From positions 1 through 53,084 of the forward strand of contig CANJVX010000020.1 in the NCBI GenBank assembly GCA_947478405.1: 53,084 nt of DNA, in the 5' to 3' direction. The notes beneath the pieces are model-generated. The model ran no database searches, was not told where the DNA came from, and saw nothing but the letters and a program-made list of their open reading frames with translations. The stretch is from Beijerinckiaceae bacterium (GTDB taxonomy: Bacteria > Pseudomonadota > Alphaproteobacteria > Rhizobiales > Beijerinckiaceae). Shown here piece after piece: positions 3,049 through 25,250 of this stretch. Position 1 is the stretch's first letter. Each line of letters begins with the position of its first letter. The position numbers were made by a program, and so were the translations under genes.

Positions 3049-3102
3049 GTTCTCCAATAGGAAACACAGTTTCAATAATGACGTTAGTGTCCAAACTGTC
3101 AA
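3049..3102 (-). promoter_or_regulatory. Promoter and operator of the MDR-ligase-flavoprotein operon
   Basis: On the minus strand: -35 TTGACA (plus 3097-3102), 17-bp spacer, -10 ATTATT (3074-3079), then half-sites GAAAC (3069-3073), N3, GTTTC (3061-3065), N7 and a degenerate third half-site GTTCT-type (3049-3053). The operator begins at the -10 and covers the expected start of transcription, which fits a repressor. Same architecture as the sites at 3161, 14657, 17235 and 25195. Confidence 0.7.
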
Positions 3103-3127
3103 GTTCAGAAAATCCGATATCTTACGG

Positions 3128-3185
3128 TTGACACGGGGGCGAATGCCCCATCTAGTTGTAGAAACATAGTTTCTTTTAAAGAAAC
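3128..3185 (+). promoter_or_regulatory. Promoter and operator of the ABC-transporter operon
   Basis: -35 TTGACA at 3128-3133, 17-bp spacer, -10 TCTAGT at 3151-3156, then the half-sites GAAAC (3161-3165), N3, GTTTC (3169-3173), N7, GAAAC (3181-3185). It lies back to back with the promoter at 3049-3102, so both divergent operons carry their own copy of the operator. Start of translation is at 3206 behind an AGGAGG. Confidence 0.72.
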
Positions 3186-3205
3186 GGACAGCGAGGAGGA
3201 TGCAA

Positions 3206-4228
3206 ATGATCTTGATGCGCAATCCCAAACCATGCCTTGTCGCTGCAGCCTTGATGGCTTTCGCCATTACCGCGACCGGAGTAGCTCGTGCAGAAACAAC
3301 AAAGAATGTTCGTTTCGCCCTTCAGTGGGGGCTTGCATGGATGCCATATGTCGTGATGAAGCGGGAAAAGATTATTGAACGCCGCGCCAAAGAAGCAGGA
3401 CTGGGTGACGTAACCGCCGAATACCGCGAATTTGCGGGCGGGAATATAATGAACGACGCACTTCTTGCAGGCCAGATTGAATTTGCGACAACAGGGATCA
3501 CTAACTTTCTTGTTCTTTGGGACAAGGCTCGAAAAGTTCTCCCGGTCAAAGCGGCATCGGGATTTGCGACAATTCCCTATGCACTTGTGACGCGCAATCC
3601 TAACCTAAAAACTATGGCTGATATCAGCGCTAAAGATCGAATTGCACTACCAGCTGTAAAAATTTCTGCACAAGCAGTTTTGCTGCAGATGATTGCCACC
3701 AAAATGTACGGAAAAGAGAATTATACAAAATTTGATGATCTAACAATTTCACGCTCCATGCCCGACGGAATGGCAGCAATGCTTTCAGGCAGTGAGATCA
3801 ATAGTCATTTTTCATCGCCACCCTATCTTCAGGCTGAGTTGCGCGATCCTAATGTACGCACTGTCATAAAGACAAGTGACATCATCGACGTCCCGATCTC
3901 GAATGGTCTTCTCTATACAACCGAAAAATTTCATAACGAAAATCCAAAACTTTACAATGTAGTTCTCGACAGCCTCCAGGAAGCAATCGACATTATTAAT
4001 AAAGATAAGCTCCAAGCATCGAAAGATTACCTCGATCTTACAAAAGAAAAAGCCACGCCCGAAGAACTCGTCGCTATTTTATCGGAGGCCGGGTCAGAAT
4101 TTACAATGACCCCATCTGCTATCTATGTATTCGCTGAGTTTATGCACAAAGTTGGGACAATCAAAGAGCTTCCTCTATCATGGAAAGATTTCTTTTTTCC
4201 TGAAATCCACAACCGTCCGGGTAAGTAA
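3206..4228 (+). CDS. NitT/TauT-type ABC transporter substrate-binding protein (NMT1/THI5-like)
   Basis: A 340-residue periplasmic binding protein. Residues 1 to about 28 form a Sec signal peptide (hydrophobic AAALMAFAITATGVARA, ending in an AxA-type site). The mature start reads VRFALQWGLAWMPY, typical of the NMT1/SsuA family that binds nitrate, sulfonates, pyrimidine precursors or aromatic acids. The ATG at 3206 was preferred over that at 3200 because AGGAGG at 3194-3199 is correctly spaced only from 3206. It is followed by the ATPase and permease genes, giving a complete importer. The ligand cannot be deduced. Confidence 0.92.
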   Translation: MILMRNPKPCLVAAALMAFAITATGVARAETTKNVRFALQWGLAWMPYVVMKREKIIERRAKEAGLGDVTAEYREFAGGNIMNDALLAGQIEFATTGITNFLVLWDKARKVLPVKAASGFATIPYALVTRNPNLKTMADISAKDRIALPAVKISAQAVLLQMIATKMYGKENYTKFDDLTISRSMPDGMAAMLSGSEINSHFSSPPYLQAELRDPNVRTVIKTSDIIDVPISNGLLYTTEKFHNENPKLYNVVLDSLQEAIDIINKDKLQASKDYLDLTKEKATPEELVAILSEAGSEFTMTPSAIYVFAEFMHKVGTIKELPLSWKDFFFPEIHNRPGK

Positions 4229-4241
4229 CCTGGTTACGGAC

Positions 4242-5015
4242 ATGATTATATCAGACCAGGCTCCGCTCTTGCAACTTCGCAATGTCAATTTGAGCTATGA
4301 CACACATCAGGGACGCGTTCAGGCAACGGACAAGATATCTTTCGATATTTTTTTAAAGGAGAGATTTGTTCTTATCGGACCGTCCGGATGTGGAAAATCA
4401 AGCCTACTGAAAGCAGTAGCCGGCTTTATCCATCCGTCAGAGGGATCCATCAAGCTCAAGGGTGAGGAAATCAAAGGACCTGGGCCTGACAGAATGATGG
4501 TGTTTCAGGAATTTGACCAGCTTCTTCCGTGGAAGACGGTCGTAGAAAACGTAATGTTTCCTCTTGTAGCCACGCGCCGCTTTGAAAAGAGCGAAGCCCA
4601 TCATCGTGCCATGGCCTGCCTGTCCAAGGTTCAACTCGCTAAATATGCTGACAATTATTGCCATACTCTTTCAGGGGGAATGAAGCAGCGTGTAGCCATT
4701 GCTCGTGGCATGACAATGGAACCCGATATTCTGCTAATGGACGAACCATTTGCAGCACTAGATGCAATGACGCGAGAAAGCATGCAGGATGAATTATTAG
4801 CTTTATGTAAAGAAATGAATTTCGCGGTTATGTTTGTTACGCATTCGATATCGGAAGCTGTGAAAATTGGCACCCGAATTCTAATGCTTTCAGCAAATCC
4901 AGGTCGGGTAAAAGGCGTTGTATTAACGAATTCTGCGACCGGAAGCGAAGCAACAGATCTTGTGCACGAAATCGGTCAATCCCTGTTCGGAAACGCAGGA
5001 GGCCGTTGTGACTGA
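4242..5015 (+). CDS. ABC transporter ATP-binding protein, NitT/TauT family
   Basis: A 257-residue ATPase that drives the importer encoded by its neighbours. Walker A is GPSGCGKSS, the signature LSGGMKQRVAIARG and Walker B ILLMDEPFAALD, followed by the switch histidine in FVTHSI. The Q-loop is visible in MMVFQEFDQLLPW. The frame is open further upstream, but an ATG at 4242, 13 bp after the preceding stop, gives the normal family N-terminus (PLLQLRNVNLSYD). The 3' end overlaps the permease gene by 8 bp. Confidence 0.93.
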   Translation: MIISDQAPLLQLRNVNLSYDTHQGRVQATDKISFDIFLKERFVLIGPSGCGKSSLLKAVAGFIHPSEGSIKLKGEEIKGPGPDRMMVFQEFDQLLPWKTVVENVMFPLVATRRFEKSEAHHRAMACLSKVQLAKYADNYCHTLSGGMKQRVAIARGMTMEPDILLMDEPFAALDAMTRESMQDELLALCKEMNFAVMFVTHSISEAVKIGTRILMLSANPGRVKGVVLTNSATGSEATDLVHEIGQSLFGNAGGRCD

Positions 5016-5835
5016 CGAACCGATAATTGGGGAAACAACGCGTATTGAAGTCAAAAAATCTAAAGAAAATACAAAGCGTCGGTTGATCTCTGTCATTTTA
5101 ATTTGCGCAATGTGGGAAATATACGGGCGGTGGCTGAATTCCCCCTTACTCTTTCCCTCTCTAAGCGAAACAATAGTTGCACTAGTGAACAAAATAGGAT
5201 CAGGCGAACTTATTTCTGCAGGTTGGCATTCGATTGCAACTTTAACTAAGGGCTATCTACTTGGCGTCGGCCTGGCATTCGTGGCAACAACTTTAGCAAT
5301 GAGCAGCCGCTTCGCGCGTGAATTGCTTGAAACACTGACAGCCATGTTCAATCCGCTGCCAGCCATCGCGCTATTACCCCTTTCTCTAATCTGGTTTGGG
5401 CTAGGCGAGGGAAGCATTATTTTTGTTATTGTTCATTCTGTTCTATGGGCTGTAGCACTGAACATGAACTCTGGGTTCCGATCCGTATCGCCGACATGGC
5501 GAATGATTGGACAAAATTATGGTCTGTCGCTTATACGATTTGTTTATCTTATCCTCTTGCCCGGAGCATTTCCGAGTATTCTAGCAGGCCTTAAAGTTGG
5601 TTGGGCCTTCGCATGGCGTACACTTATTGCCGCTGAATTTGTTTTTGGCGTCAGCTCGGGCAGCGGCGGACTGGGTTGGTTCATCTATAACGAGCGTAAC
5701 CAGCTCGAGATACCGAATGTCTTTGCCGGTCTTGTGACCATAATGCTGTTCGGTGTTATTTTCGAATACGGGCTCTTCCGGACCATTGAAAATAGGACGG
5801 TTCGGCGTTGGGGTATGCAAATGGACGATCGCTAA
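5008..5835 (+). CDS. ABC transporter permease, NitT/TauT family
   Basis: A 275-residue inner-membrane protein with about six hydrophobic segments. The cytoplasmic coupling loop follows NYGLSLIRFVYLILLPGAFPSILAGLKVG in outline (EAA-type loop, short segments LPGAFPSILAGL). The GTG at 5008 was chosen: AGGAGG at 4997-5002 is 5 nt upstream and the gene overlaps the ATPase stop. An upstream in-frame ATG at 4960 would lie deep within the ATPase gene. The stop shares a base with the ATG of the thioesterase gene (TAATG), so the four genes from 3206 to 6230 are one operon. Confidence 0.92.
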   Translation: MTDEPIIGETTRIEVKKSKENTKRRLISVILICAMWEIYGRWLNSPLLFPSLSETIVALVNKIGSGELISAGWHSIATLTKGYLLGVGLAFVATTLAMSSRFARELLETLTAMFNPLPAIALLPLSLIWFGLGEGSIIFVIVHSVLWAVALNMNSGFRSVSPTWRMIGQNYGLSLIRFVYLILLPGAFPSILAGLKVGWAFAWRTLIAAEFVFGVSSGSGGLGWFIYNERNQLEIPNVFAGLVTIMLFGVIFEYGLFRTIENRTVRRWGMQMDDR

Positions 5836-6230
5836 TGGAGCCCAATGACCTAGAACAAATGATACTGAAAGCACCCTTTCACCGATGGCTCGGCTTAAAA
5901 GTTCTGGACGTTCAGGATGGACGCGTCAAACTCGAAGCACAATGGAATGAAAACTGGATCGCAAATACAGAACGGAAACATACACATGGAGGAATTCTCT
6001 GCGCTTTGATCGACATTGGAGCAAACTGGGCGATAGCAACAAAGGTCAAACACGGCGTTCCTACTATTGATCTACGTGTTGATTATCATGCCCCAAGCTA
6101 TGAGGAAAATCTTTTTGTAGAGGGAACCATTCTGCGGTTTGGCAAACGCTTATCGACTGCAGAGACAAAGATTTTTTCAGCCAACCAACCCCTCATTGCC
6201 AGCGGCCGTGGACTCTTTCTGACAGAGTAG
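5835..6230 (+). CDS. PaaI-like hotdog-fold thioesterase
   Basis: A 131-residue single hotdog domain. The segment ERKHTHGGILCALIDIGANWAI matches the HGG...D pattern of PaaI/YbgC-type acyl-CoA thioesterases, in which the HGG glycine and the helix acidic residue help catalysis. It is translationally coupled to the permease (TAATG). Hydrolysis of a CoA thioester made by the ligase of the neighbouring operon is a reasonable guess. The 3' end is only 11 bp from the end of the convergent regulator gene. Confidence 0.85.
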   Translation: MEPNDLEQMILKAPFHRWLGLKVLDVQDGRVKLEAQWNENWIANTERKHTHGGILCALIDIGANWAIATKVKHGVPTIDLRVDYHAPSYEENLFVEGTILRFGKRLSTAETKIFSANQPLIASGRGLFLTE

Positions 6231-6241
6231 CTGAAATGCAG

Positions 6242-7006: not shown

Positions 7007-7019
7007 AACCAAATCCTAA

Positions 7020-7049
7020 GAAACCACGGTCTGTTTCCCATATAGAAAC
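7020..7049 (-). promoter_or_regulatory. Operator-like site in front of the IclR gene
   Basis: GTTTC (7033-7037), N7, GAAAC (7045-7049) is the core of the island operator. The third half-site is not at the usual 3-bp spacing; a GAAAC is present 8 bp away at 7020-7024. On the minus strand a TATATG at about 7038-7043 could be a -10 that overlaps the operator. Probably the autoregulatory site. Confidence 0.55.
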
Positions 7050-7138
7050 GGGATACCTTTGACAAGCTCAAGTTCGATGAAAAAAGAATTCCTCGCCAAA
7101 TTTAAGAAAAAAACTCGCCAGCTAAACCACACAGCCGA

Positions 7139-7726
7139 TCAACGAATATTCGGATTAGGCGGGAACCATTTGGCTTTACGCGTTGTAAGATCAAACTGAA
7201 GACGATCCTTCAAGTCTGACAATCGCCTACCATAAAGATGTAGATGCAGCGTGGCCTCTTCACTGTGGACATGGATGCTATGAATATCATCTGGCATAAG
7301 CGCGATCGGACTGCCCGCGCGCACCACATGCTCACGGTCCAGGACCAGGTCCACAGTATCATTGCTCGATCCATCGTCAGCGCGGCGGTAAATCCTATTC
7401 AATTCGTCACCGGCTATACCTACAATCACAGCCCAAGTTGCATGATTATGGGGAGGCGTTTCCTTACCCTTATTTGCCGAAGAGACATACAACGTATTTT
7501 GACCATCAGGATCCGAAACGATTTCATAAAGAATATTTGTCGGACCCTCAGGCGGCAGAAAAACATTCCGCGGAAACAATCCTTTGATGGCAGCAAGAGC
7601 AGCAAGCTCGTCAGTCACCAACTTTAAAGTGTCGCGCGAAAGACCCGCCATCATGATTTGCTTAACACGATCAACACTGTCCCGAGAGGCATCTTTTGTT
7701 TGCGGCGGAATTATAACGTTTGGCAT
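7139..7726 (-). CDS. Cysteine-dioxygenase-like cupin (thiol dioxygenase family)
   Basis: A 195-residue single cupin. The metal site is visible as PPHNHATWAV (H93, H95) with G and E spaced as in the first cupin motif (GIAGDELNRIY), and H149 in PDDIHSIHVH. This matches the bacterial thiol-dioxygenase group (cysteine, 3-mercaptopropionate or mercaptosuccinate dioxygenases), which turn a thiol into a sulfinate with Fe(II) and O2; the exact substrate is not readable. It is the last gene of a seven-gene operon starting at 14641 and lies 31 bp after a rhodanese gene, a pairing that favours sulfur chemistry. Confidence 0.75.
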   Translation of the reverse strand: MPNVIIPPQTKDASRDSVDRVKQIMMAGLSRDTLKLVTDELAALAAIKGLFPRNVFLPPEGPTNILYEIVSDPDGQNTLYVSSANKGKETPPHNHATWAVIVGIAGDELNRIYRRADDGSSNDTVDLVLDREHVVRAGSPIALMPDDIHSIHVHSEEATLHLHLYGRRLSDLKDRLQFDLTTRKAKWFPPNPNIR

Positions 7727-7757
7727 GCGAAACTCCTGCTTACATTCGGGTTAAAAA

Positions 7758-9314
7758 TCATAAACGCCGGAAAGCTGCGCCCGGCTCGCTGACAACATGG
7801 TCCATCAGACCCTTCTCCCAGTCGAGATAGGCACGCATGGAATCCTCGGCCGCATTAGTAAGATCATACGGTCGGTAAAAAACATCATTCGGATTAGAGG
7901 GTAAATTTCCATTGCCCTGCTCCACTGGTAAGCCTGCCTCACGCCACGCATGCATCCCGCCTTTCATCGCGTAGGCATTGAATCCCTTCGAAATCAGTTC
8001 ATGCGCTACGATTTGCGCGAGCCGCCCATCTGGGGATATGAGAATAATTTTGCTTCCCGCGGCAAGATCTCGCGCCAGAGCAGCTCGCTCGGCAAAAAGT
8101 GCACCCACAATATGACCGCGCCGGAAAACCTTGCTGGAAGAAAGGTCAAAAAGGGCATAGCCGCGCGAACTGTATGCTTCGAGATCGCCGACCTCGATAA
8201 GCCGCGCCTGCGCAACGAGTGCATCGGCGAGCTGAGATGGCGGCAGGTCACGGCTCGATGTGTCGCAATCAGTTAAACAAAAGACATCGACGATGCCCAT
8301 CTGCCGCAACCACGAAGCGACCATGAGCGCACGAATCCCTTCCTGATCGCACAAAATAACACGCGCGTTGCGCACGACTACAAATGTATCAAATGTTTGC
8401 ACTAGCTGTCCGCCTGGCGCGGAAACAGCTCCAGCACGATGACCTTTTCTGTAATCATTGGGGTCGCGAATATCAAATACATAGGTAGTGCGTTCTGGGT
8501 CCGACAAAAAGCTATCAACTTCTAAAGAACCGACAAAACGTACCCCTACCCGATCGGCCCGCTCGCGAATTCCCTCACGAATTGATTCAAGTTGCATAGA
8601 CGATGACGGTGCCATGCAGTTCTGCTGCATGTTTTCGAGGCTGAACCCGGCAAGATGCCAGCCCATCGTACCATCCCTAAGCGCAAAAACTGGATTTTTA
8701 AGTCCTGAATCAATTAGCGTTTGCGCCCCGATAATGCTGCGAGTGCGACCGGCGCAGTTGACTACGATTTTTTGATCGGGCTTTAGATTCAAACTTCCAA
8801 CGCGATATACAAGTTCCGCCCCGGGACAATTAACGGCGCCCCGAATACTCATGGCCTGATATTCATCATAGGGCCGCGCGTCAATTAGCACGAGCCGTGG
8901 ATCTTTTTCCAAAAAATTATGTAGTTCTTCGGGCGAGACGTGCGGCGTTCCAGCTGTATTTTCAATAAATTCACCAAAAGCCTTGCTAGGAACATTGATG
9001 CCGTCATAGAGCCGGAACCCCGCTTCCTCCCATGCCCGAGAGCCGCCATTCAACAAACACACATCACTGTAGCCAAACTGCGCGAAGACAGTCTCTGCGT
9101 CCTCAATCGAAGAGCCTGCTTCGACAAGAACAACCGGCGTTTTTTTGCGGGGAACCAAACCTTCAATGCGCAATTCCAACAAAGAGCGCGGGATGTTTGT
9201 TGCAAAAAACAAATGTCCCTTGGCGAAATCACCCTCGCGTCGTAGATCAAGAATAGCGTGTTCCGCATCACCCTTAACTAGGGCAACCAGATCGGAAACA
9301 GAGATTTGACGCAT
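7758..9314 (-). CDS. Four-domain rhodanese-like sulfurtransferase
   Basis: A 518-residue protein made of four consecutive rhodanese-like domains (about residues 1-105, 120-240, 250-370 and 375-480), each with the repeating DLR/DAR/DIR/DLS strand and AW..AG or GW..AG end. Only domain 2 has an active-site cysteine loop (NCAGRTRS, C187). The equivalent loops are LVEAGSS in domain 1, CDQEGIR in domain 3 (D at the nucleophile position) and ISPDGR in domain 4. The start at 9314 was preferred over 9359, which would overlap the upstream dehydrogenase. Expected to pass sulfane sulfur or cyanide; the inactive domains may bind partners. Confidence 0.85.
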   Translation of the reverse strand: MRQISVSDLVALVKGDAEHAILDLRREGDFAKGHLFFATNIPRSLLELRIEGLVPRKKTPVVLVEAGSSIEDAETVFAQFGYSDVCLLNGGSRAWEEAGFRLYDGINVPSKAFGEFIENTAGTPHVSPEELHNFLEKDPRLVLIDARPYDEYQAMSIRGAVNCPGAELVYRVGSLNLKPDQKIVVNCAGRTRSIIGAQTLIDSGLKNPVFALRDGTMGWHLAGFSLENMQQNCMAPSSSMQLESIREGIRERADRVGVRFVGSLEVDSFLSDPERTTYVFDIRDPNDYRKGHRAGAVSAPGGQLVQTFDTFVVVRNARVILCDQEGIRALMVASWLRQMGIVDVFCLTDCDTSSRDLPPSQLADALVAQARLIEVGDLEAYSSRGYALFDLSSSKVFRRGHIVGALFAERAALARDLAAGSKIILISPDGRLAQIVAHELISKGFNAYAMKGGMHAWREAGLPVEQGNGNLPSNPNDVFYRPYDLTNAAEDSMRAYLDWEKGLMDHVVSEPGAAFRRL

Positions 9315-9331
9315 GTCGTTTTTACTTCCGC

Positions 9332-10414
9332 TCAGGCTTGTGCTGTGACGGCTGTCCAAATGCGCTTACAAATTTCAGCCATATCGATTAGCCCCAGATC
9401 TCTCCGTGCTACAGCCGTATGCGGTGTCAGGATGACGTTTTTGAATTTTTTAAGCGGCTCGTCTACCCGTCCGGGCTCTTCATATCCAACGTCAAGTCCA
9501 TAGCCGCCAAGTTTGCCGCTTTCCAAAACATTGTTAAGTGCATCGCGATCAATTAGTTGCGCACGTGCAATGTTGATAACAATCGCTCCTGTTTTTAGTT
9601 TTTGTAGAGCGGCACTATCGATTATACCGCGGGTAAGATCACTTAGCGGCAGATGAATCGAAAGAAAATCTGATTTCTGCAACAATTCATCGAATGACAC
9701 GTATTCGGCGTTATAAATCGTCTCGTCTATTAGACTCATACGATTACGCTGGTGATATATAATTTTCATGCCGAAGGCTGCTGCACGCGAAGCCACTTCG
9801 CGCCCGATCTCACCCATGCCGAGAGCGCCAAAAGTTGCGCCGTAAAGAACCTTGATATCTGAAATCCGGCCATAATTTGAATTCGTCGTATAGCGGCGAT
9901 CATAGGGACGGGAATTGAACCCAGCAGCGTCGAGCGAAGCTGAATCAGTGATGTGATTAGTCTCACACAATCTGCGGGCAAGGGCGATCATAAGCATGAA
10001 GGCCTGTTCGGCAACGGCAATATTCACACGCCGCTTCTGGATACGCACAAGGAGATTATGCCGTGCACAAGCAGCAATATCAATATTCGAGCTCAATGTT
10101 CCGAATTTATGGACGATAGCGAGATCTCTACCCAGTACAATTTCCTTCTCGCCAAATGGCAGCGATTCAATAATCGCAGCTTTGGCCCCAGGCAATCTCG
10201 CCTGAAGATCGGCTTGATCTTTGACTAACTCTATTTTTGCTGGATAAAGCCCAGGGATTTCTGACTGAAATTTGCGTAGCCAAGCTTCGAAATCAGGTAT
10301 GTCGTGAGCCATAAAATCATTCAGTGCTGCCCTGTGTTCCCCCGTGATGCTAGGGTCAAGAAGAACTGGAACAATGCGCAAATAAGAATCGTCTTCAACT
10401 AGAACGCGAAGCAT
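9332..10414 (-). CDS. D-isomer-specific 2-hydroxyacid dehydrogenase
   Basis: A 360-residue NAD(P)-dependent dehydrogenase. The nucleotide-binding motif is LGMGEIGREV, and the catalytic arginine, glutamate and histidine sit in NIARAQLIDRDAL, YEEPGRVDEPL and LTPHTA. The start at 10414 (MLRVLVEDD) has AAAGGA 6 nt upstream. A full-length paralogue lies at 21131-22213. The two share unusual blocks not typical of the family, for example AHD-PDFE near the N-terminus and PYDRRYTTNSN against PFDRRHTANSN in the middle. Probably reduces or oxidises a 2-keto/2-hydroxy acid of the pathway. Confidence 0.9.
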   Translation of the reverse strand: MLRVLVEDDSYLRIVPVLLDPSITGEHRAALNDFMAHDIPDFEAWLRKFQSEIPGLYPAKIELVKDQADLQARLPGAKAAIIESLPFGEKEIVLGRDLAIVHKFGTLSSNIDIAACARHNLLVRIQKRRVNIAVAEQAFMLMIALARRLCETNHITDSASLDAAGFNSRPYDRRYTTNSNYGRISDIKVLYGATFGALGMGEIGREVASRAAAFGMKIIYHQRNRMSLIDETIYNAEYVSFDELLQKSDFLSIHLPLSDLTRGIIDSAALQKLKTGAIVINIARAQLIDRDALNNVLESGKLGGYGLDVGYEEPGRVDEPLKKFKNVILTPHTAVARRDLGLIDMAEICKRIWTAVTAQA

Positions 10415-10434
10415 GTTTTTTCCTTTCAATTTTT

Positions 10435-11268
10435 CTAATGCCTGCTCAGAAGGCTCCCGAACCCCTCTATCCGGTCATTGATTCCAACTTGACGGAGAGC
10501 GTGCCAGAAAGTAGCAAGGTTACTGGTGATCACGGGCTTACCCCGTTCTGCTTCAATCGCTTCAAGTTCCCCAACACCAGCCATATTAGCACAACTGATA
10601 AACAGGACGTCTGCTTTCTGATTGTCAATGTGGCGACAGAAACGATGCAACGATTGCGGCGGAACACGACCGATTCCACGTCGCTCTTCCTGTGTCACTC
10701 CGAGTTCCAACCCATACATGGAAACAACTTCAAATCCTTCTCTCTCAAGAAACTCGATTTCCGTTTCATTGATAAAACTCACATATGGCGTACCCAATGC
10801 AATTCGTCGAACATTCATAGCTTTCAATGCAGCGAGAACAGCCGTGATTGTGCAGAATGATGGGCATCCGGCCACTTTTGTGATGGCATCTTCGATTGCT
10901 TTAGGGGGCGTGAGAACGCTCCCCGATGTACAGGCCCAAGCAATGATATCGCAGTCAGCCGTTTCAAGTTCGCGCGCAGCACGTTCTGTGTCAGTCCACA
11001 TTGTTGAATAGGATTCCGCAGTCGCTTTTCCTGTTAGAAGAAGCTTAGTGGCATGGAACGAAACTCCCTTTGGTGCCATTTGATAAAGCTCCGGCTCAAG
11101 AGCCGTATTAACACCCGGTGTGATAATTCCGATTTTCGCGCGATAGCCGTATGGGCTATAAAACTGAACAGCCTTCATTACATTGCTTGCGATTTTCTCG
11201 GGTGCAGCAGCAACAGCCCGAGGCCGCAAGGCTTCGACTTTGGAAAATTCTGTCTTAGAAACGCTCAT
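10435..11268 (-). CDS. Maleate isomerase / arylmalonate decarboxylase-like (Asp/Glu racemase superfamily)
   Basis: A 277-residue protein with the two-cysteine layout of maleate cis-trans isomerases and Asp/Glu racemases: C113 in AWACTSGS and C226 in FISCANMAG. Substrate-loop features such as PGVNTALEPE are typical of the maleate-isomerase/AMDase group. Having both cysteines favours isomerase or racemase activity over the one-cysteine arylmalonate decarboxylases. AAAGGGG 6 nt before the ATG supports the start. It lies 20 bp before the hydroxyacid dehydrogenase in the same operon. Confidence 0.85.
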   Translation of the reverse strand: MSVSKTEFSKVEALRPRAVAAAPEKIASNVMKAVQFYSPYGYRAKIGIITPGVNTALEPELYQMAPKGVSFHATKLLLTGKATAESYSTMWTDTERAARELETADCDIIAWACTSGSVLTPPKAIEDAITKVAGCPSFCTITAVLAALKAMNVRRIALGTPYVSFINETEIEFLEREGFEVVSMYGLELGVTQEERRGIGRVPPQSLHRFCRHIDNQKADVLFISCANMAGVGELEAIEAERGKPVITSNLATFWHALRQVGINDRIEGFGSLLSRH

Positions 11269-11294
11269 CTTTCGCCCCTTTGAAAATATAATTT

Positions 11295-12503: not shown

Positions 12504-12526
12504 AAGAAATCTCCCTAGATTTTCTT

Positions 12527-13588: not shown

Positions 13589-13621
13589 GGTTTTGTTCCT
13601 AACTCCGCTGTTGACGAAACT

Positions 13622-14656: not shown

Positions 14657-14716
14657 GTTTCTTATAAAGAAACAGTGTTTCAGCCAAATATTGACAGGTG
14701 TTTGATCTCCCCGCAA
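14657..14716 (-). promoter_or_regulatory. Promoter and operator of the seven-gene operon
   Basis: Minus strand: -35 TTGCGG (plus 14711-14716), 17-bp spacer, -10 CAATAT (14688-14693), then GAAAC (14677-14681), N3, GTTTC (14669-14673), N7, GAAAC (14657-14661). The 25-bp operator is identical, base for base, to that at 17235-17259. It also lies in the divergent gap in front of the MmgE/PrpD gene and could control both directions. Confidence 0.72.
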
Positions 14717-14806
14717 GCTCCGATTGCGAGAATTTACGTCTAAAGTCAGTCGGAAAACCTCACCTAATAAATGACAGAAAACGCGGGCGTAACAAAGGGG
14801 ACGCGA

Positions 14807-17220: not shown

Positions 17221-17234
17221 TTAAAAGCTCCATA

Positions 17235-17289
17235 GTTTCTTATAAAGAAACAGTGTTTCAATATGAACATAATTTGCCACCCCGGTCAA
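17235..17289 (-). promoter_or_regulatory. Promoter and operator of the DHDPS-family gene
   Basis: Minus strand: -35 TTGACC (plus 17284-17289), 17-bp spacer, -10 TCATAT (17261-17266), then GAAAC (17255-17259), N3, GTTTC (17247-17251), N7, GAAAC (17235-17239). It is also in the divergent gap in front of the MFS gene at 17393. Confidence 0.72.
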
Positions 17290-17392: not shown

Positions 17393-18586
17393 ATGAATGA
17401 TGATATCGGAAAGCCTTCGAACCTATCTATCTATGCCATATATGCGATCGCTCTCCTCGCAGAAGGCGCAGGGACGGTAGTCATTCCGCTCTGGGTACTC
17501 AGCCTAAATCCGACGCCAGCAATGTTCGGCATTGTCATCGGTGCAAAGGGCCTCCTTCCACTGCTTTTTTCAATTCACGGCGGTGTGCTGATGGACCGCT
17601 TTGGTGCTGACCGCATTTTGCGTGCTGCATCTCTGGTTGGTGTTTTTTTGCCTATTTTTTTTCCGCTTCTCCCCAATCTATGGGCTGCAATTTTTCTTCA
17701 AATGATTAGCGGATTAATTATCACCATCAGCTGGATTGGAGTGCAAACATTAATCAGCCAGAGCCTCAAAGGCGAAAGGCATTATTTTTCGCGCCTCAGT
17801 TTTGCGAACAGAACGGGGGTTTTCATATGCCCTCTGGTTGCCGGCTTTTCTTGGGATGTCTGGGGCTCAAACGCCGGATTTGTTACCATGTTTGTAATGA
17901 GTGTCATTGCACTGACCTCCTCATTCCTTCTCCCTAAGCCGGAGACCAAGCTCGTATTACGCTCGTTTACATCCGCAGAATTTATTCCACGCTTGGCAGA
18001 TTATCGCGACGCTTTGTTACTCCTGTCCATTCCAGCCGTGTTACTGACCTCGCTGGCCTCGGTGATTAATGTCGCCGTTGGAACCGTGCAGCAATCTTTC
18101 TATATTGTTTATCTCGAAAAACTGGGGATGACCGGAACGATGATCGCTATTCTTGTCGCTGCTCCAAATCTTCTCGGGGTTATGGGCGCAATGGGAATCG
18201 GAAATGCGGTTCGTAAAATTGGCGACGTGAAGATGCTGGTCTATGTCGTCATGTTATCGAGCCTGGTCGTTTGCCTAACCCCTATCTTCGTTCAATTTCC
18301 TGCACTTCTTTTGCTCGGAAGTCTGCGTGGATGGGGGATGGGCGCAGCACAGCCTCTCATGATGTCCATTCCAGCAGGAGTTGTTCCGAATGGCGCACAT
18401 GGATCGGTGGCTGGCCTACGGATCAGCATCAACCGACTGGTCCAGACTTTGCTGCCGCCGGCCATGGGGCTTATCGTTGAACTGGCCGGTTTGGAAAATA
18501 GCTTTTTTATTACAGGCACTCTAATGCTATTATTAACAATCATGATACTCAGAATGGCGAATCGTGAAGAAAAAATAAGACACTAA
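17393..18586 (+). CDS. Major facilitator superfamily transporter
   Basis: 397 residues with about twelve hydrophobic segments. The loop after TM2 reads GGVLMDRFGADRILRAA, a good match to the MFS G-x-L-x-D-R-x-G-R motif. Its length is normal for a sugar/organic-acid or drug permease. With a class II aldolase gene 64 bp downstream in the same direction it may move a pathway substrate or product. The specificity is unknown. Confidence 0.9.
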   Translation: MNDDIGKPSNLSIYAIYAIALLAEGAGTVVIPLWVLSLNPTPAMFGIVIGAKGLLPLLFSIHGGVLMDRFGADRILRAASLVGVFLPIFFPLLPNLWAAIFLQMISGLIITISWIGVQTLISQSLKGERHYFSRLSFANRTGVFICPLVAGFSWDVWGSNAGFVTMFVMSVIALTSSFLLPKPETKLVLRSFTSAEFIPRLADYRDALLLLSIPAVLLTSLASVINVAVGTVQQSFYIVYLEKLGMTGTMIAILVAAPNLLGVMGAMGIGNAVRKIGDVKMLVYVVMLSSLVVCLTPIFVQFPALLLLGSLRGWGMGAAQPLMMSIPAGVVPNGAHGSVAGLRISINRLVQTLLPPAMGLIVELAGLENSFFITGTLMLLLTIMILRMANREEKIRH

Positions 18587-18650
18587 GATATAATTTGAAC
18601 CACCTTTACAACAATCAATCGTTCAAAAAATAGAACTGTGGGGGCAACTA

Positions 18651-19418
18651 ATGTCTACGATCGAGAAGCTCAAAGAAGAACTGGCGACGGCAAACCGCAT
18701 TCTTGCTCATCACAACGTTGTCGATTCCTTCGGTCATATTTCCGCAAGAAACCCTGAGAATCCAAATCATTTTTTGATGTCACGCGCTCGAGCGCCAGCC
18801 TGTGTTGAAGATTCAGACATCATGGAATTCACTCTCGATGGCAATGTGATCGGAACCGAAGTTGGAAAACCATATTCGGAGCGATTTATCCACGGGGCGA
18901 TTCTCGAAGCGCGGCCAGACGTACAGGCGGTCGTGCACAATCACAGCCCTAACGTTGTACCCTTCACGGTAACTGGACGAAAAATGCGCCCGATCATGCA
19001 TATGTGCGCACCTATCGGGACAGATATTCCCAATTGGGACATAGCTACAAAATTCGGAGACGAGACAAATCTGCTCGTAACCAATATGGATATGGGCCGC
19101 GATCTTGCGAAGACCCTCGGCAGAAATACGGTCTCATTAATGAGAGGCCATGGCAGTGTAGTGTGCGGCCGATCGGTTCGTGAAGCTGTCTTCACCTCTA
19201 TTTTTATGGAAATCAACGCGGAAATGCTCATTAAGGCGCTGCAAATGGGCGAGGTTCATTATCTGCATGATAGCGAAGTCGCTGCAAACACGCGGGGACG
19301 TGCGGGATTCACCTGGGAACGCGGCTGGGAAAATTGGTGCCGTGAGGTTAATCGACCCTATCGTTCTAACTCTTGGGAAATGGGTCCCGGCTTTTCAAAG
19401 ACAGATCCCATCGGCTGA
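18651..19418 (+). CDS. Class II aldolase/adducin-family protein
   Basis: 255 residues of the FucA/AraD/adducin-head family. The divalent metal would be held by H96 and H98 (VVHNHSP) and H167 (LMRGHGS), and the acidic residue E77 is in PYSERFIHG, so the metal site looks complete. Members act as retro-aldolases, epimerases or hydroxy-acid decarboxylases. No sugar-phosphate genes are nearby, so a decarboxylase or aldolase on a hydroxy acid is as likely as a sugar role. Confidence 0.88.
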   Translation: MSTIEKLKEELATANRILAHHNVVDSFGHISARNPENPNHFLMSRARAPACVEDSDIMEFTLDGNVIGTEVGKPYSERFIHGAILEARPDVQAVVHNHSPNVVPFTVTGRKMRPIMHMCAPIGTDIPNWDIATKFGDETNLLVTNMDMGRDLAKTLGRNTVSLMRGHGSVVCGRSVREAVFTSIFMEINAEMLIKALQMGEVHYLHDSEVAANTRGRAGFTWERGWENWCREVNRPYRSNSWEMGPGFSKTDPIG

Positions 19419-19448
19419 GCCTCACACAGGTTCCATACAAGAAAAAGC

Positions 19449-19476
19449 TGGAGGCTCGGATTACCGCGGGCCTCCA
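19449..19476 (-). terminator. Terminator after the binding-protein-3 operon
   Basis: Stem TGGAGGC / GCCTCCA with inner CGG-ATTA-CCG pairing. On the minus strand it is followed by GCTTTTTC. It lies 6 bp after the stop of the gene at 19483-20535 and also downstream of the convergent aldolase gene. Confidence 0.7.
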
Positions 19477-19482
19477 TCGATT

Positions 19483-20535
19483 TCAGAACTTGCTTGCCGC
19501 CGAAGCACTTTTTAAAATATCAGGAGGAATTTTTCCAACACCCTCGATCATTTTCTGCAGAGACTTTCCGTCAAGAGGATCAAGATCGAGCTTTGCTTTC
19601 TCAATGTCATTAATGAAAGCATTATCGTGCATCACATCCATAAAAGCTCGCTGTAACTCATCAAGACGCTCAGGTGGCAATCCGGGAGGGGCTATGATCG
19701 AACGACCCACATCGCCGCCGATGGCAAAAATGCGCATCACCTCGCGCATCTTGTCGTCTGTAGCCAACTCAATCGTTGTTGGCACATCCTTGAACAATGG
19801 ACTACGCTTCATGGAATTCAGAACAAGCGGCCGAACTAGACCACTCTCAGCCAAGCGAGCAAACTGTGACACATAAGAGGATGAAATGACTGATGTCGCA
19901 TCTACTTCATTTCGCTCGAGCGCTATTACCATTTCATTTGTGCCAGGATAACCCATTACGAGCTTAAATTTTGTTTTCAGTAAATTATTCAGTACTGCGG
20001 GCAAAATCGTAGCCTCTGATGAAGGGCCAGTAGTCGAAATTGCGACTTCGTGTTGTGTCACATCTTGTAAGTTACGTACTGGAGAATCCATTCTACTAAT
20101 AATCAGAGTCTGACTGGTTGCAATACGACCAATCATTCCGAATTTAAAAAAATCGAAACTAATTCCCTGCCCGCCAAGCAATTGGTCAACCGGAAGAGTT
20201 TGCGCCACCATCCCGATCGCACTACCGTCTTTAAGAGAAGACGAATAAAGAATATTTGCGAGCTTGATACTACCGGCACCTGGCACATTCTGCACTATCA
20301 CTGTCGGGAGCATCGGTAGATGTTGACCGAGATAGCGGGCAAGAAAGCGGCAATAAAGATCAAAGCCACCACCAGGACCAAAGCCTACTGAGATAGTGAT
20401 CTGCTGCGGCCGTGCGGATACGCTTTCTAGCGCCAGCGCGGGTGTATATATTGTTCCAAAATATAACAGGGAAAAAGTACCAAGTTTTGTAACTCTAGGT
20501 TTAATCTGTTGCATAATATTGAAAAATAATTTCAT
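19483..20535 (-). CDS. Bug/TctC-like periplasmic binding protein, variant 3
   Basis: 350 residues. The signal peptide covers about residues 15-36 (LLYFGTIYTPALA). The mature part has GFGPGGGFDLYCRFLARYLG and QNVPGAGSIK, then GPSSEATILPAVLNNLL, closely parallel to the binding proteins at 12527 and 13622. GAAGGG 6 nt before the ATG supports the start. It is the last gene of the six-gene operon that starts at 25165. Confidence 0.86.
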   Translation of the reverse strand: MKLFFNIMQQIKPRVTKLGTFSLLYFGTIYTPALALESVSARPQQITISVGFGPGGGFDLYCRFLARYLGQHLPMLPTVIVQNVPGAGSIKLANILYSSSLKDGSAIGMVAQTLPVDQLLGGQGISFDFFKFGMIGRIATSQTLIISRMDSPVRNLQDVTQHEVAISTTGPSSEATILPAVLNNLLKTKFKLVMGYPGTNEMVIALERNEVDATSVISSSYVSQFARLAESGLVRPLVLNSMKRSPLFKDVPTTIELATDDKMREVMRIFAIGGDVGRSIIAPPGLPPERLDELQRAFMDVMHDNAFINDIEKAKLDLDPLDGKSLQKMIEGVGKIPPDILKSASAASKF

Positions 20536-20569
20536 CGTGCACCCTTCACCATCCGTAAATAACTACTAC

Positions 20570-21106
20570 TTAGGCACCATTCTTTTCCGGATCGATCTCC
20601 AGAGTGTCAAAGACCAGCCGCGCCATATCGTACATCCCGACAACGATCATCAGTTCAATCTGCTCCGGCAGGGAAAATAAATCTTTTACCTCGTTGAAGG
20701 TTGAATCTGATATTTTCCCGTTTTTCATCATTTCTTCGGTACAACAAAGCGCAGCACGCTCGCGCAAAGATAACTTTATAAGATTGCGCCAATCTTGAAT
20801 TTCAAAGCATTCTTCAAGCGTGACACCTGCAGCTATTGCGAGCGTCGGAATATGCTGTCCGCTCACGTAGGCGGAAGCTGTTAAACGAGCGATTAAAACA
20901 ACCATCAGCTCACGCAATCTTGCATCAAGAGAGCCTGCTGTTCGAACCGTGTTGGTAAATTCAAACCAGGCGCGCGCCAACTCAGGTGCATGCAAAAGCG
21001 CTTTGTAGGGATTGAGTAATTTGCCTCGCCTACCTCGTTTGATGCGGTCTAATAGACCAGCATGTTCAGATAAATCGCTTTCTTCCAGATAGGGGACACG
21101 TGCCAT
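20570..21106 (-). CDS. Carboxymuconolactone-decarboxylase-family protein
   Basis: 178 residues with the AhpD/CMD fold. The core LRELMVVLIARLTASAY...GQHIPTLAIAAG matches the family E...Y....H block. The CxxC pair of AhpD peroxidases is replaced by Ser/Val (SAYVSGQH), so alkylhydroperoxidase-type redox chemistry is unlikely and a decarboxylase-like or binding role is preferred. The start at 21106 (MARVPYLEE) fits better than 21130, given AGG spacing and the family N-terminus. Confidence 0.82.
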   Translation of the reverse strand: MARVPYLEESDLSEHAGLLDRIKRGRRGKLLNPYKALLHAPELARAWFEFTNTVRTAGSLDARLRELMVVLIARLTASAYVSGQHIPTLAIAAGVTLEECFEIQDWRNLIKLSLRERAALCCTEEMMKNGKISDSTFNEVKDLFSLPEQIELMIVVGMYDMARLVFDTLEIDPEKNGA

Positions 21107-21130
21107 CGGATGCATACCTGTTAGGTGCAA

Positions 21131-22213
21131 TCACCAATATTTTTGTATATCCGCGACCATATGCTGCAGATCAGACAATACATTCGTCCGAGGCTGCGCA
21201 GCAATATGCGGAGTTAGAACAACATTCGGGAATGACAATAATTCATCATCTGAGCTGCCCGGTGTTTCATATTGCGTATCTAAAGCAAAACCGCCAAGCC
21301 TCTCTTTCCGTAAAATATCAATCAGCGCCGCGCGGTCGATAAAATCGGCCCGCGAAATATTGATAAGAAATGCACCCTTTTTAAGAAGCGCTAGTTCCCT
21401 TGGCCCCAACAGACAGGTTCGCACATCGGTATCCGATCGCAAGGTGAGAATGATCCAATCGCACTCACGCAGCAATGTGTTGAGATCATTATAAGTCAGA
21501 CAAAATGCTAGCTCTTCGGCCAGCGGTAGCCGCGTGCGCTGGTGATAAAAAAGCTGCGATCCGAAGCCGGAGAGGCGACGCACAACCTGTTTGCCTATTT
21601 CACCGACGCCGATAATGCCGACCTTACTTCCTGCAATAACTTGAAAGCCTGGAATACGCGCCCAGTTCGAATTGGCCGTATGCCGCCTGTCAAACGGCCT
21701 GAAAGTTTTACCTGCAGATTCCATTCTGCTGACACTGATATGCCCCGCCCAACGCGTGATCTGCTTTCCAAGCACCAGCATGAATGCGATGACCATTTCA
21801 GCGCACGCTGCGGTTGATTTTCTGTCGATGGTCAAAACAGGAATCTTGCGCCTCTCGCATGCCTCAATATCGATCCCGCGCGATGAGGATCCAAATTTCT
21901 GTATGAGTCGCAAATTCGGAGCATGTGCGAGATCTTCAGCACTGACGATAAACGATTCGACAATCAAAGCATGCGCATCGGGCAACGCATGATACATGGC
22001 AGCAATATCACTTACGAGCCGGATGGACGCCGGGAAAACCGAAGGCGCACTTTTACGAATTGTCGAGCAATACCCTTCGAAATCGGGCAGATCATGCGCG
22101 AAAAAGTCGGCGAAGGCGGCGATACGCACGGGATCACAGGCCGGATCAAGGAGAACCTGAAACATGCGCGTGAACCAATCGTCTTCGACTATAATCATCC
22201 TGCGTTGGGTCAT
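21131..22213 (-). CDS. D-isomer-specific 2-hydroxyacid dehydrogenase (second copy)
   Basis: 360 residues, same length as its paralogue at 9332-10414. The Rossmann motif is IGVGEIGKQVV, and the catalytic R, E and H are in NISRADFIDRAAL, YETPGSSDDELL and LTPHIA. The N-terminal AHDLPDFEGY and mid-protein PFDRRHTANSNWARI segments are shared with the paralogue and not usual in the family. The duplication is old, since the two differ at most other positions. It probably acts on a related 2-hydroxy acid. Confidence 0.9.
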   Translation of the reverse strand: MTQRRMIIVEDDWFTRMFQVLLDPACDPVRIAAFADFFAHDLPDFEGYCSTIRKSAPSVFPASIRLVSDIAAMYHALPDAHALIVESFIVSAEDLAHAPNLRLIQKFGSSSRGIDIEACERRKIPVLTIDRKSTAACAEMVIAFMLVLGKQITRWAGHISVSRMESAGKTFRPFDRRHTANSNWARIPGFQVIAGSKVGIIGVGEIGKQVVRRLSGFGSQLFYHQRTRLPLAEELAFCLTYNDLNTLLRECDWIILTLRSDTDVRTCLLGPRELALLKKGAFLINISRADFIDRAALIDILRKERLGGFALDTQYETPGSSDDELLSFPNVVLTPHIAAQPRTNVLSDLQHMVADIQKYW

Positions 22214-22258
22214 CTTTTCATCCCGCTCTACCGAACCAGGAGCACTGTCTCACAAAGA

Positions 22259-23242
22259 TTATTGCGCGCTTAAATTTGCCGCCTCTAGAGCATCTTTGTA
22301 TAGCCCTTGATCAGCCTTGATAATCTCTGAAAATTCTTTTCGCGATGCAGTTCCCGGATATACGCCAAGCTGTGCTAGACGTTCCATAGTGGCGGGATCT
22401 TTCAATCCCTCTCCAATAGTTTCAGAAATCATATTGGCAATTGCCTCCGGTATGGCAGGTGGCGCAAGCAGGCCATTCCACGCACTGACCTGAAAGCCCT
22501 TAATGAATTCCGCGATGGTCGGCACATCCTTGAAAGCCGGCAAACGGTTGTTTCCCGATGTCGCTAGCAAAACTATTGATTTACTTTCAATATGGGGGAG
22601 GAGCTCCGAGGGCGTACCTAAGAACAGATCGACATGTCCCCCGATCAGATCATTGGTGGCTGGCGCCGAACCCTTGTAGGGAACATGAACGATCTGGATG
22701 CCGGCGCGCTTTGCCAGCAATGCCGTAACAATATGGCTGACTGATCCCGAACCGCCAGAAGCATAATTAAGTTTCGTCGGATTCTTTTTCGCATATTCTA
22801 TAAAATCCTGAAAATTGTTTATCCCCAGTTTCGCATTGATCGTTAGAAAGAGAGGGAATTGCGCCACAATCGCAAGCGGGCTGAATTGCTCTGGCGTATA
22901 ATTGACATTCTGCATGAAAGGTGCGGTTACAATAGGTCCCGGCGGGCTTAGTAAAAGCGTATAGCCGTCTGCTCGCGCAGTTGCCGTCGCATGAGCGGCT
23001 ATAATACCGCCGCCTGCCACCCGATTTTCAATAATGAATGGCTTCCCGAATTTTTTCGATAGCATTTCCGCACTCAGGCGCGCCAGCAAATCAGCTATCC
23101 CGCCAGCTGCATAAGGCACAAGAATGGTGACCGTCTTGCTCGGCCATGTTTCCTGCGCATGCCCGTTTGCACTGAAACAAGAAAGAGCCCCCAATCCCTG
23201 CAGAAAAACCCGGCGAGTTGAGATGATGCGATGGTCAGACAT
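22259..23242 (-). CDS. Bug/TctC tripartite tricarboxylate binding protein with Tat-like signal
   Basis: 327 residues from the ATG at 23242 (another ATG lies at 23248). The N-terminus contains STRRVFLQGLGALSC, a twin-arginine motif, so export through Tat is possible. The mature protein is a canonical Bug: VPYAAGGIADLLARL, VENR-like IIENRVAGGG, HVPYKGSAPATNDLIGG and a late DVPTIAEF. It is more typical of the family than the three GGGYDVY-type proteins nearby. It overlaps the upstream cyclodeaminase-like gene by 8 bp. Confidence 0.92.
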   Translation of the reverse strand: MSDHRIISTRRVFLQGLGALSCFSANGHAQETWPSKTVTILVPYAAGGIADLLARLSAEMLSKKFGKPFIIENRVAGGGIIAAHATATARADGYTLLLSPPGPIVTAPFMQNVNYTPEQFSPLAIVAQFPLFLTINAKLGINNFQDFIEYAKKNPTKLNYASGGSGSVSHIVTALLAKRAGIQIVHVPYKGSAPATNDLIGGHVDLFLGTPSELLPHIESKSIVLLATSGNNRLPAFKDVPTIAEFIKGFQVSAWNGLLAPPAIPEAIANMISETIGEGLKDPATMERLAQLGVYPGTASRKEFSEIIKADQGLYKDALEAANLSAQ

Positions 23243-24281
23243 AATCATGACGGCCTCCAGACTGATTTATTGGATGCGCTCGCGGGAGCCAGAGACCTTT
23301 ACCTTCTGCCAAGGCACGCAGATAGACATGATGGTTGCAAGCGATATCCTGCGACACGAGCCCACCTGTATGGATTAGAATTTTCTCGTCTTCGCGAGTA
23401 CGCCCCGACCTGTTGCCACACACGACATCGGCAATTTCGCCGTGCAGCCACTCCCTTAAGAATAAACCAGTCTCAACCATGTTGCGGAAGACGGGCTGTG
23501 TCATGTTCAGATCCCAACTGTCGACCACGACTTTATCCATTTTCTGCCAGTCGTGCGGCGCCATTTCTCGGCGCGCAAGAGAGATGAACAAGGCACCCGG
23601 TTTCAGCCAAGATTCGCGACACATGACATCAGACGATGTCGTGCTGCCTATGACAATATCGGCATTGTACACTGTCTCTTCGACGCTTGTGCAGGCTACA
23701 CATTCGACGCCATAATCCTGTTCTGTTTTTTTTGTAAAAGCGTTACGCGTTTCTTCTCGTCTGGATGTGCAGCGAATCTGGGTGAATGAAAAGAGCTCCA
23801 TCAGGCAAATCAAAGCACTTGCACCCATTGTGCCAATACCAACCAAAGCCAGTATTTTGGGTTTAGCCGGCGCGAGCCATTTGGCTGCAACAATAGGAGC
23901 GGCCGCACTGCGAAGACCATATGTCCAGTGATCATCGATAATGGCGAGGGGACGTCCGTTGAAAGGATCTGAAAGAATTACATAGCCCAAACGTTCGAGC
24001 GACCCGACATTATTCTGGTGACCATCATCGATATAATTATAAACGCGCACACCGGTTATCGGTGGATCTTTCAGAAACGCTGTTTTTAGATGCCAGTGAT
24101 TGTGGAAGGGTGCACCGATATCGAGCTTTAGGCTCGACGGATTTGGCAAAACTACCTCGTCCCTTTTCTGCATGCGATAGACATTTTCACAAATATCGAG
24201 AGCATCTTTAGCCTTGAAGAGGGATATAGTCTCCTCATAGGATAGAAACAAGACGCCCCGGTCTTCTCCGCGATCTATCAT
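23235..24281 (-). CDS. Ornithine cyclodeaminase / mu-crystallin-family protein
   Basis: 348 residues. The NAD(P)-binding core is ALVGIGTMGASALICLME, followed by RCTSRREETRNAF and IVIGSTTSSDVM, the hallmark of the OCD/mu-crystallin family (alanine or tauropine-type dehydrogenases, ketimine reductases, ornithine cyclodeaminase). The substrate lysine region VRVYNYIDDG differs from bona fide cyclodeaminases, so an imine reductase or dehydrogenase is likelier. It overlaps the hydrolase stop by 4 bp and the next gene by 8 bp, hence is translationally coupled. Confidence 0.88.
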   Translation of the reverse strand: MIDRGEDRGVLFLSYEETISLFKAKDALDICENVYRMQKRDEVVLPNPSSLKLDIGAPFHNHWHLKTAFLKDPPITGVRVYNYIDDGHQNNVGSLERLGYVILSDPFNGRPLAIIDDHWTYGLRSAAAPIVAAKWLAPAKPKILALVGIGTMGASALICLMELFSFTQIRCTSRREETRNAFTKKTEQDYGVECVACTSVEETVYNADIVIGSTTSSDVMCRESWLKPGALFISLARREMAPHDWQKMDKVVVDSWDLNMTQPVFRNMVETGLFLREWLHGEIADVVCGNRSGRTREDEKILIHTGGLVSQDIACNHHVYLRALAEGKGLWLPRAHPINQSGGRHDYV

Positions 24282-25165
24282 TTGCAGTCGACCAAGTGCC
24301 GATTGAACCAGGCAATTGCTTGTTCGGCGACGGGTTCCAGCAAGTCTCCATAGACCGAATGGTGATAGCCGTGCTGGAAGAAAAATATCTTTTTAGGACC
24401 AGCAAGTTTTTCATAAAGCCATTCGGTCTGCTCGTGCGGCACGAGCATGTCGCCTTTGATGCCAATAACACCTACGGGTATTTTTATTTTTCCTGCTACA
24501 GCCAAAGGATCATGATTAACGACATGGATAAAGGTCTCGAGACTAAATTGCTGCGCGGTCACATGGCGATCGCGTGATTTAGGATCTGGCGGAACAAGAT
24601 CGAAACGATCCACCATAGTCATATGGCCGTTTTGCTCTTTCTCGAGGAGAGCTGTGTGCGCGCGTTCTTTTAGATCTATATATTCATAATAACGGCAGAC
24701 TGCTCGCAACCATTGATTACCCGAGACGACAGGCACAGTGACAAAAGCCGCTTTGATTTTCGGCATTTCTGCGGCCGCCATCAAAGCAATCCCGCCACCA
24801 AAACTCGTGCCGTAAACACCGAGTCTATCGGGATCTACCCCAAAATCTTTAGAAAGAAATTCGACCGCACGGATTGCATCCTCCGTCTGTTCTTGCGGAA
24901 CAAGATGCCCGCGCGGGCCCTCGCTTTCACCAAAACCACGATAATCAAACGACAAAGCTGTATAACCGGCGAGCGCCAGTTTATCGCACAACCCTAGGGG
25001 CGTTCCTTCCTTCACACCCCCGAAGCCGTGGCAAAAAACTATGCCTGTTTTAATGTCTCTTTCGGGAGCAGGCAGATATACTCTCGCCGCCAGCCGCAAG
25101 CCCGAACTGGAAACGAAACTCCGATCTATCGTGCGCGATACTGCATGCTTCGGTTCGGTGGCCAC
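24278..25165 (-). CDS. Alpha/beta hydrolase
   Basis: 295 residues. The oxyanion-hole HG motif is FCHGFGG, the nucleophile elbow GTSFGG (S121), and the later acid and histidine are in GIKGDMLVPHEQ and HGYHHSVY, so the triad is complete. It is the first gene of a six-gene operon (hydrolase, cyclodeaminase-like, Bug protein, dehydrogenase, CMD-like, binding protein). No secretion signal is seen, so a cytoplasmic esterase, lactonase or C-C hydrolase is likely. Confidence 0.9.
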   Translation of the reverse strand: MATEPKHAVSRTIDRSFVSSSGLRLAARVYLPAPERDIKTGIVFCHGFGGVKEGTPLGLCDKLALAGYTALSFDYRGFGESEGPRGHLVPQEQTEDAIRAVEFLSKDFGVDPDRLGVYGTSFGGGIALMAAAEMPKIKAAFVTVPVVSGNQWLRAVCRYYEYIDLKERAHTALLEKEQNGHMTMVDRFDLVPPDPKSRDRHVTAQQFSLETFIHVVNHDPLAVAGKIKIPVGVIGIKGDMLVPHEQTEWLYEKLAGPKKIFFFQHGYHHSVYGDLLEPVAEQAIAWFNRHLVDCK

Positions 25166-25194
25166 ATATGCCTCTCAAACGTCTAAGCCAAAAT

Positions 25195-25250
25195 GTTTCC
25201 TTTAAAGAAACAAGGTTTCTAATGAGATCTTGCCTTTTAGCTTAAGTCAA
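25195..25250 (-). promoter_or_regulatory. Promoter and operator of the hydrolase operon
   Basis: Minus strand: -35 TTGACT (plus 25245-25250), 17-bp spacer, -10 TCTCAT (25222-25227), then GAAAC (25215-25219), N3, GTTTC (25207-25211), N7, GAAAC (25195-25199). It is the rightmost of the five complete promoter-operator units. Confidence 0.72.

Follow-up and report, generated by a model that had tools for sequence, protein, structure and literature searches.

A probable local IclR regulon marked by a recurring three-box operator in a Beijerinckiaceae catabolic gene cluster

We analyzed a 53,084-nt contig of a Beijerinckiaceae bacterium (CANJVX010000020.1, hereafter the window) and found six operator-like sites at the promoters of a catabolic gene cluster of roughly 25 kb that also encodes a regulator of the IclR family (iclR; Table 1). 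We propose that the cluster is a local regulon whose operators are read by the product of its own iclR gene acting as a repressor, an interpretation to which we assign a probability of about 0.85. Read towards the gene, five of the sites follow the pattern GAAAC-N3-GTTTC-N7-GAAAC. As the first-pass annotation of this DNA had stated, the pattern is exact at 3161, 14657, 17235, and 25195 and degenerate in the third box at 3049 (two mismatches, both within box 3), and the sites at 14657 and 17235 are identical over 25 bp. That annotation had listed these five sites, all of which are real, and had overlooked the sixth, which lies before iclR at 7033-7049. Since the iclR promoter site carries two boxes, we regard the inner 17-bp palindrome GTTTC-N7-GAAAC as the common core. 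With up to 3 mismatches allowed, the window holds 9 matches to the pattern, compared with a mean of 1.59 in shuffled sequences, and none of 100 shuffles reached 9 or more. One pair of boxes has the box type and spacing of group 1 IclR sites and the other those of group 2, in alternating direction, which is the arrangement of a three-box IclR operator.

The motif is concentrated in the cluster. All 4 exact three-box matches in the bacterium's own assembly (3.03 Mb, 79 contigs, 95% complete) lie within it, the reversed pattern that served as control gave 0 matches, and about 0.005 exact matches per genome are expected from the base composition of the window. The first-pass annotation had held that good matches scattered through unrelated genes would speak against a single regulon; with zero exact three-box matches outside the cluster, such scatter was not seen. 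The perfect palindrome occurs at 8 places genome-wide, 5 of them in the cluster, whereas base composition predicts 2.5 in a whole genome and 0.02 in 25 kb. Sites outside the cluster were judged by stop-to-stop frames, without gene calling: the three perfect palindromes (on contigs C14, C21, and C26) lie inside frames of at least 120 codons, and both outside matches with two mismatches, including one on C4, also sit within long frames. We therefore rejected the three palindromes and the C4 site as additional targets. The palindrome on C21 and its counterpart (contig C11) in the closest relative, the metagenome-assembled genome Jr-28jun17-108 (Beijerinckiaceae; hereafter G397), read as one conserved coding gene, which we take to be that of ribosomal protein S17.

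The iclR product belongs to the IclR family (PF09339, 48.0 bits, cut-off 22; PF01614, 108.8 bits, cut-off 24), and its gene is the sole transcription-factor gene recognized among the scanned open reading frames (ORFs) of the cluster. Its best NCBIfam models were BhcR (NF045644, 139.8 bits) and PcaR/PcaU/PobR (TIGR02431, 139.1 bits), yet membership in either was rejected, as the curated cut-offs (350 and 284.75, respectively) are much higher than these scores. PF01614 has 9 matches in the genome, and the flanks fetched for the 8 others (up to 1.5 kb, shorter at contig ends) contained no palindrome with 0 or 1 mismatch, for which reason we rejected these paralogues as the binder. We tie the motif to the cluster IclR because the palindrome stands at its own promoter and because exact sites lie near its relatives in other genomes. 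The first-pass claim that the IclR encoded at 6242 represses the five units thus gains comparative support for the link to this protein, whereas repression itself is suggested by the position of the sites. Autoregulation of iclR through 7033-7049 is likely.

Comparison with relatives points in the same direction. The IclR of G397 is 84% identical to that of the window. A scan of genome contigs returned this one relative, and a search of 199 genomes of the family gave one IclR relative besides our own (G479, 84%, same genus), which has the same identity, contig (C8), and position and is evidently from the same genome as G397. In its 3.1 Mb, G397 carries three exact sites in all, at the orthologous promoters of unit D, the DapA-like gene, and unit F. 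Across these three pairs, box bases are identical at 45 of 45 positions and spacer bases at 14 of 30; the box identity follows by construction, as the sites were found via their boxes, while their fall at orthologous promoters does not. The palindrome at the iclR promoter is retained in G397 with one mismatch. When we started from the protein (385 genomes of the class, relatives at E ≤1e-50, at most 6 candidates scored per genome), four genomes besides our own had a relative; three of them, all from one other genus (48-49% identity), each contain a single exact site, which precedes the matched part of the gene by 3 bases. Among 397 genomes of the order, one other (G004) has relatives at this threshold. 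Its 46% identical IclR is adjacent to the first of three exact sites that together span about 13 kb, and its 41% identical paralogue has 1-mismatch sites 96 bp and 2.3 kb away. Thus all of the genomes examined that encode a relative of 46-84% identity (G397, G004, G609, G737, and G834) have exact sites close to it. Within the 40 kb of G004 that was read, relatives of the 28 window proteins were found for IclR and a generic ABC ATPase alone. When we started from the motif, exact sites were present in 13 of the 397 order genomes (18 sites, against 1 control match), and in 10 of the 12 other than ours the distance from a site to an IclR_C match was no more than about 4.1 kb, and in 7 of these 10 no more than about 330 bp. 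By our own arithmetic, IclR gene density predicts an IclR gene that near a site in about 2% of genomes. The ten positive genomes share genera (three in g57; pairs in g12, g27, and g83) and so represent fewer independent cases. An IclR gene near three-box sites is accordingly a recurrent association across genomes.

The sites also coincide with predicted promoters. TTGAC occurs 29-33 bp upstream of box 1 at 4 of the 5 three-box sites (3049, 3161, 17235, and 25195), in the form TTGACA at 3049 (29 bp) and 3161 (33 bp), and G397 retains the TTGAC of 17235 and 25195. With spacers of 16-18 bp, the best combined -35/-10 scores at the five sites were 10, 10, 7, 9, and 9 of 12; random 60-mers from the window, which are mostly coding, score 9 or more in about 0.6% of cases, and none of 20,000 random five-segment sums reached the observed sum. 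A 17-bp spacer, which the first-pass annotation had assigned to every site, can be read at all five but scores best at only 3161 and 25195, while the best spacer is 16 bp at 3049 and 18 bp at 14657 and 17235. At the iclR promoter we read, by eye, TTGTCA-N17-TATGGG, with the -10 mostly between the two boxes, and G397 has TTGTCA-N17-TATAGG in the same place. The palindrome centers lie 17-38 bp ahead of likely gene starts (own arithmetic), which include ATG 3040 or 3025 behind the 3049 site and ATG 14641 behind the 14657 site; the starts at 14641 and, for iclR, at 7006 are nested in longer ORFs.

From the presence and distribution of these sites we infer how the regulon may work with respect to binding, oligomeric state, repression, and induction. 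An IclR dimer would bind GTTTC-N7-GAAAC, and at the five structural-gene promoters the third box, 20 bp (two helical turns) from its like-oriented partner, would also be contacted, probably by a dimer of dimers. At these promoters the predicted -10 is followed by box 1 after 0-6 bp, so transcription would start in or beside the operator, and bound IclR would block initiation. The two boxes at iclR, which stand alone and mostly frame its predicted -10, suggest a weaker autorepression. The signal that releases IclR would be a substrate or intermediate of the pathway, probably an organic acid that the TctC-like, NitT-like, and MFS transporters import.

The three-box design is already known for the IclR family, and in this respect the cluster is ordinary in kind. 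Suvorova and Gelfand (2021; PMC8222616) predict three-box sites, with boxes that alternate in direction, for 199 IclR proteins in 32 orthologous groups, describe them as combining both consensuses of the family, and cite PcaU, PobR, and HmgR as precedents. The group 1 consensus is given there as GKTYC-RY-W3-4-RY-GRAMC, with 7-8 bases between boxes, and the group 2 consensus as TGRAACA-N1-2-TGTTYCA, with 3-4 bases between boxes; the window's GTTTC-N7-GAAAC and GAAAC-N3-GTTTC fit the boxes and spacings of the two groups, whereas the letters flanking the boxes fit in part (at 14657, for example, GTTTC is followed by TT and not RY). The palindrome centers near gene starts likewise resemble the family-wide peak at -22 (PMC8222616). 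The same text interprets tandem palindromes with centers 18-22 nt apart as tetramer sites, and cites the external repeat of PcaU as needed for binding. As described in it, the PcaU, PobR, and HmgR operators consist, like the window sites, of a palindrome and an external direct repeat of one half-site, but the PcaU sequence (TTTGTTCGATWATCGMACAMA) differs from the window boxes. Our literature search returned no report of GTTTC/GAAAC IclR operators or of an additional half-site in IclR operators, and three-box or direct-repeat IclR sites solely in PMC8222616.

Several observations weigh against the proposed regulon and temper its details. Allowing up to 2 mismatches gives 7 matches in the own genome (3049 and two outside the cluster included) compared with 4 for the control, so that loose three-box matches carry little weight; in G397 the corresponding counts are 8 and 13, and exact sites alone count there. 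The palindrome with up to 1 mismatch was not enriched genome-wide (64 places, against 203 for the control). Site 14657 has a weak TTGCGG in place of TTGAC, the distance from -35 to box varies by about 6 bp, and the placement of the operator over or behind the -10 comes from promoter predictions in which the -10 hexamers are weak (3-4 of 6 positions matched). The 3049 and 14657 sites also fall inside ORFs if the first possible start is taken. Among relatives, the 39% identical IclR of G591, the fourth class-level genome, has no exact or 1-mismatch site, and G354 and G050 each carry an exact site that lacks a neighboring IclR gene. Finally, the type of motif would fit either sign of regulation, because PcaU and PobR, which are three-box regulators, are activators.

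A site downstream of the -10 usually blocks RNA polymerase, and activators usually bind upstream of the -35. An activating or dual role of the same IclR, comparable to PcaU, would agree with the three-box sites documented for PcaU, PobR, and HmgR (PMC8222616) and with PcaR/PcaU/PobR being among its nearest named models, but we consider it unlikely, since the boxes follow the predicted -10 at five promoters and surround it at iclR. We give still less credence, as a quite improbable alternative, to a reading of the operators by another IclR-family protein or a different regulator: there are indeed nine PF01614 matches to choose from, and boxes of the GTTTC/GAAAC type are common in the family according to PMC8222616, but it is the cluster iclR that has a palindrome at its promoter, and exact sites go with its relatives in other genomes. 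The 25-bp identity of the 14657 and 17235 sites could also suggest copies of a repeat element, or else the sites could have arisen by chance; since the G397 orthologues of these two sites diverge in their spacers, both from each other and from the window, while the boxes stay, and chance would provide so few exact matches, we regard this explanation as negligible. Repression by the cluster IclR remains our preferred interpretation.

Table 1. Operator sites and gene units of the cluster in the window
Feature	Coordinates	Strand	Remarks
FAD-dependent oxidoreductase start, truncated by contig end	3..542	-	Possibly third gene of unit A; G397 counterpart matches FAD_binding_2
Unit A: quinone-oxidoreductase-like gene, then AMP-forming acyl-CoA ligase	549..3040	-	Operator 3049
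Three-box operator, box 3 degenerate (AGAAC)	3049..3073	-	Precedes quinone-oxidoreductase-like gene and AMP ligase
Three-box operator, exact	3161..3185	+	Precedes NitT/TauT-like ABC transporter and thioesterase unit
Unit B: SsuA/NitT-like binding protein, ATPase, permease, hotdog thioesterase	3200..6230	+	Operator 3161
iclR, IclR-family regulator, 254-256 aa	6242..7012	-	HTH_IclR and IclR_C
Two-box operator GTTTC-N7-GAAAC	7033..7049	-	At iclR promoter
Unit D: two TctC-like binding proteins, cupin, arylmalonate-decarboxylase-like protein	7139..14641	-	Operator 14657
Unit D, list continued: 2-hydroxyacid dehydrogenase, multi-rhodanese protein, unassigned 195-aa ORF	7139..14641	-	
Three-box operator, exact	14657..14681	-	Precedes unit 14641 to 7139; orthologous site G397:C8:11745
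MmgE/PrpD-family gene, divergent from unit D	14771..16207	+	Shared operator 14657 possible
DapA-superfamily lyase	16264..17220	-	Operator 17235
Three-box operator, exact	17235..17259	-	Precedes DapA-like gene; orthologous site G397:C8:14324
MFS transporter and class II aldolase-like decarboxylase, divergent from DapA	17393..19418	+	Shared operator possible
Unit F: alpha/beta hydrolase, OCD-family dehydrogenase, TctC-like, 2-hydroxyacid dehydrogenase, CMD-family, TctC-like	19483..25165	-	Operator 25195
Three-box operator, exact	25195..25219	-	Precedes unit 25165 to 19483; orthologous site G397:C8:22267

The substrate of the cluster is probably an organic acid, as guessed from its transporters and enzymes, and the divergent genes at 14771 and 17393 may also be under the operators at 14657 and 17235. 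Four TctC-like binding proteins are encoded (13622-14641, 12527-13588, 19483-20535, and 22259-23248, the second identified by cross-matches only), and no TctA or TctB membrane gene was recognized among the scanned ORFs. The 533-aa protein at 7758-9359 contains several rhodanese-type stretches and is 65% identical to its G397 counterpart, compared with 77-94% for the other genes of unit D. Against solved structures, the cupin gave one weak match to an auxin-binding protein, and the DapA-like gene gave generic superfamily matches alone.

The cluster has a G+C content of 48-50%, compared with 58% for the window past 31.7 kb, and its regulator was found at E ≤1e-40 in 1 of the 9 other same-genus genomes listed. 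Because of this low G+C content, the adjacent recombinase genes, and the 1-in-9 presence within the genus, the cluster looks like an acquired or patchily retained catabolic island. The recombinase-like run (25936-31669) follows the cluster ahead of recJ and glpX and comprises a 584-aa ORF without a Pfam match, a tyrosine recombinase, two unmatched ORFs, and a CcrB-like large serine recombinase; G397 has ORFs of like size and order (L051 5463-11234). Just past the orthologue of the 25195 site, G397 carries two extra ORFs (L051 2380-4563, on G397:C8), one of which weakly matches a phosphonate/NMT1-type binding protein; the corresponding place in the window is a gap of about 0.7 kb. At the other end, the 549-6230 module, which has its own two operators and comprises the acyl-CoA ligase, quinone-oxidoreductase-like gene, ABC transporter, and thioesterase, was not found next to iclR in G397; there, the next gene after iclR is an FAD oxidoreductase gene, and the contig stops 3.3 kb further along. 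Two genes of the module, sought throughout G397, gave best matches of 31% and 30% identity on other contigs. This difference may reflect an insertion in the window genome or a loss in G397.

Among relatives, a fourth box stands at 3 of 11 extended sites (exact or near-exact), where 3, 3, and 4 of its 5 bases match, compared with 0-1 of 5 in the other 8. These possible four-box operators (N7-N3-N7) lie near IclR genes in order-level relatives (L033 10047-10083, L034 9128-9164, and L035 10231-10267; two from one genus), and with the imperfect fourth box each forms two palindromes spaced 20 bp apart. In the window, the same slot matches 0-1 of 5 bases at the five three-box sites and is located within or shortly ahead of the predicted -10, overlapping it at 3161 and 14657 and by one base at 25195, and not at 3049 and 17235. 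We offer, as a tentative idea that we think is more doubtful than probable, that the three-box operator derives from a four-box tetramer site by trimming. If so, the regulator would grade its targets by box number, with two at iclR and three at the enzymes, and operons would join the island already bearing matched operators, as the absence of the 549-6230 module beside iclR in G397 would illustrate. With its two- and three-box sites under one regulator, and possible four-box sites in relatives, the cluster would provide a test case for the predicted alternative dimerization or tetramer binding of IclR proteins. Overall, our analysis would assign most of an otherwise uncharacterized catabolic island to a single regulator.

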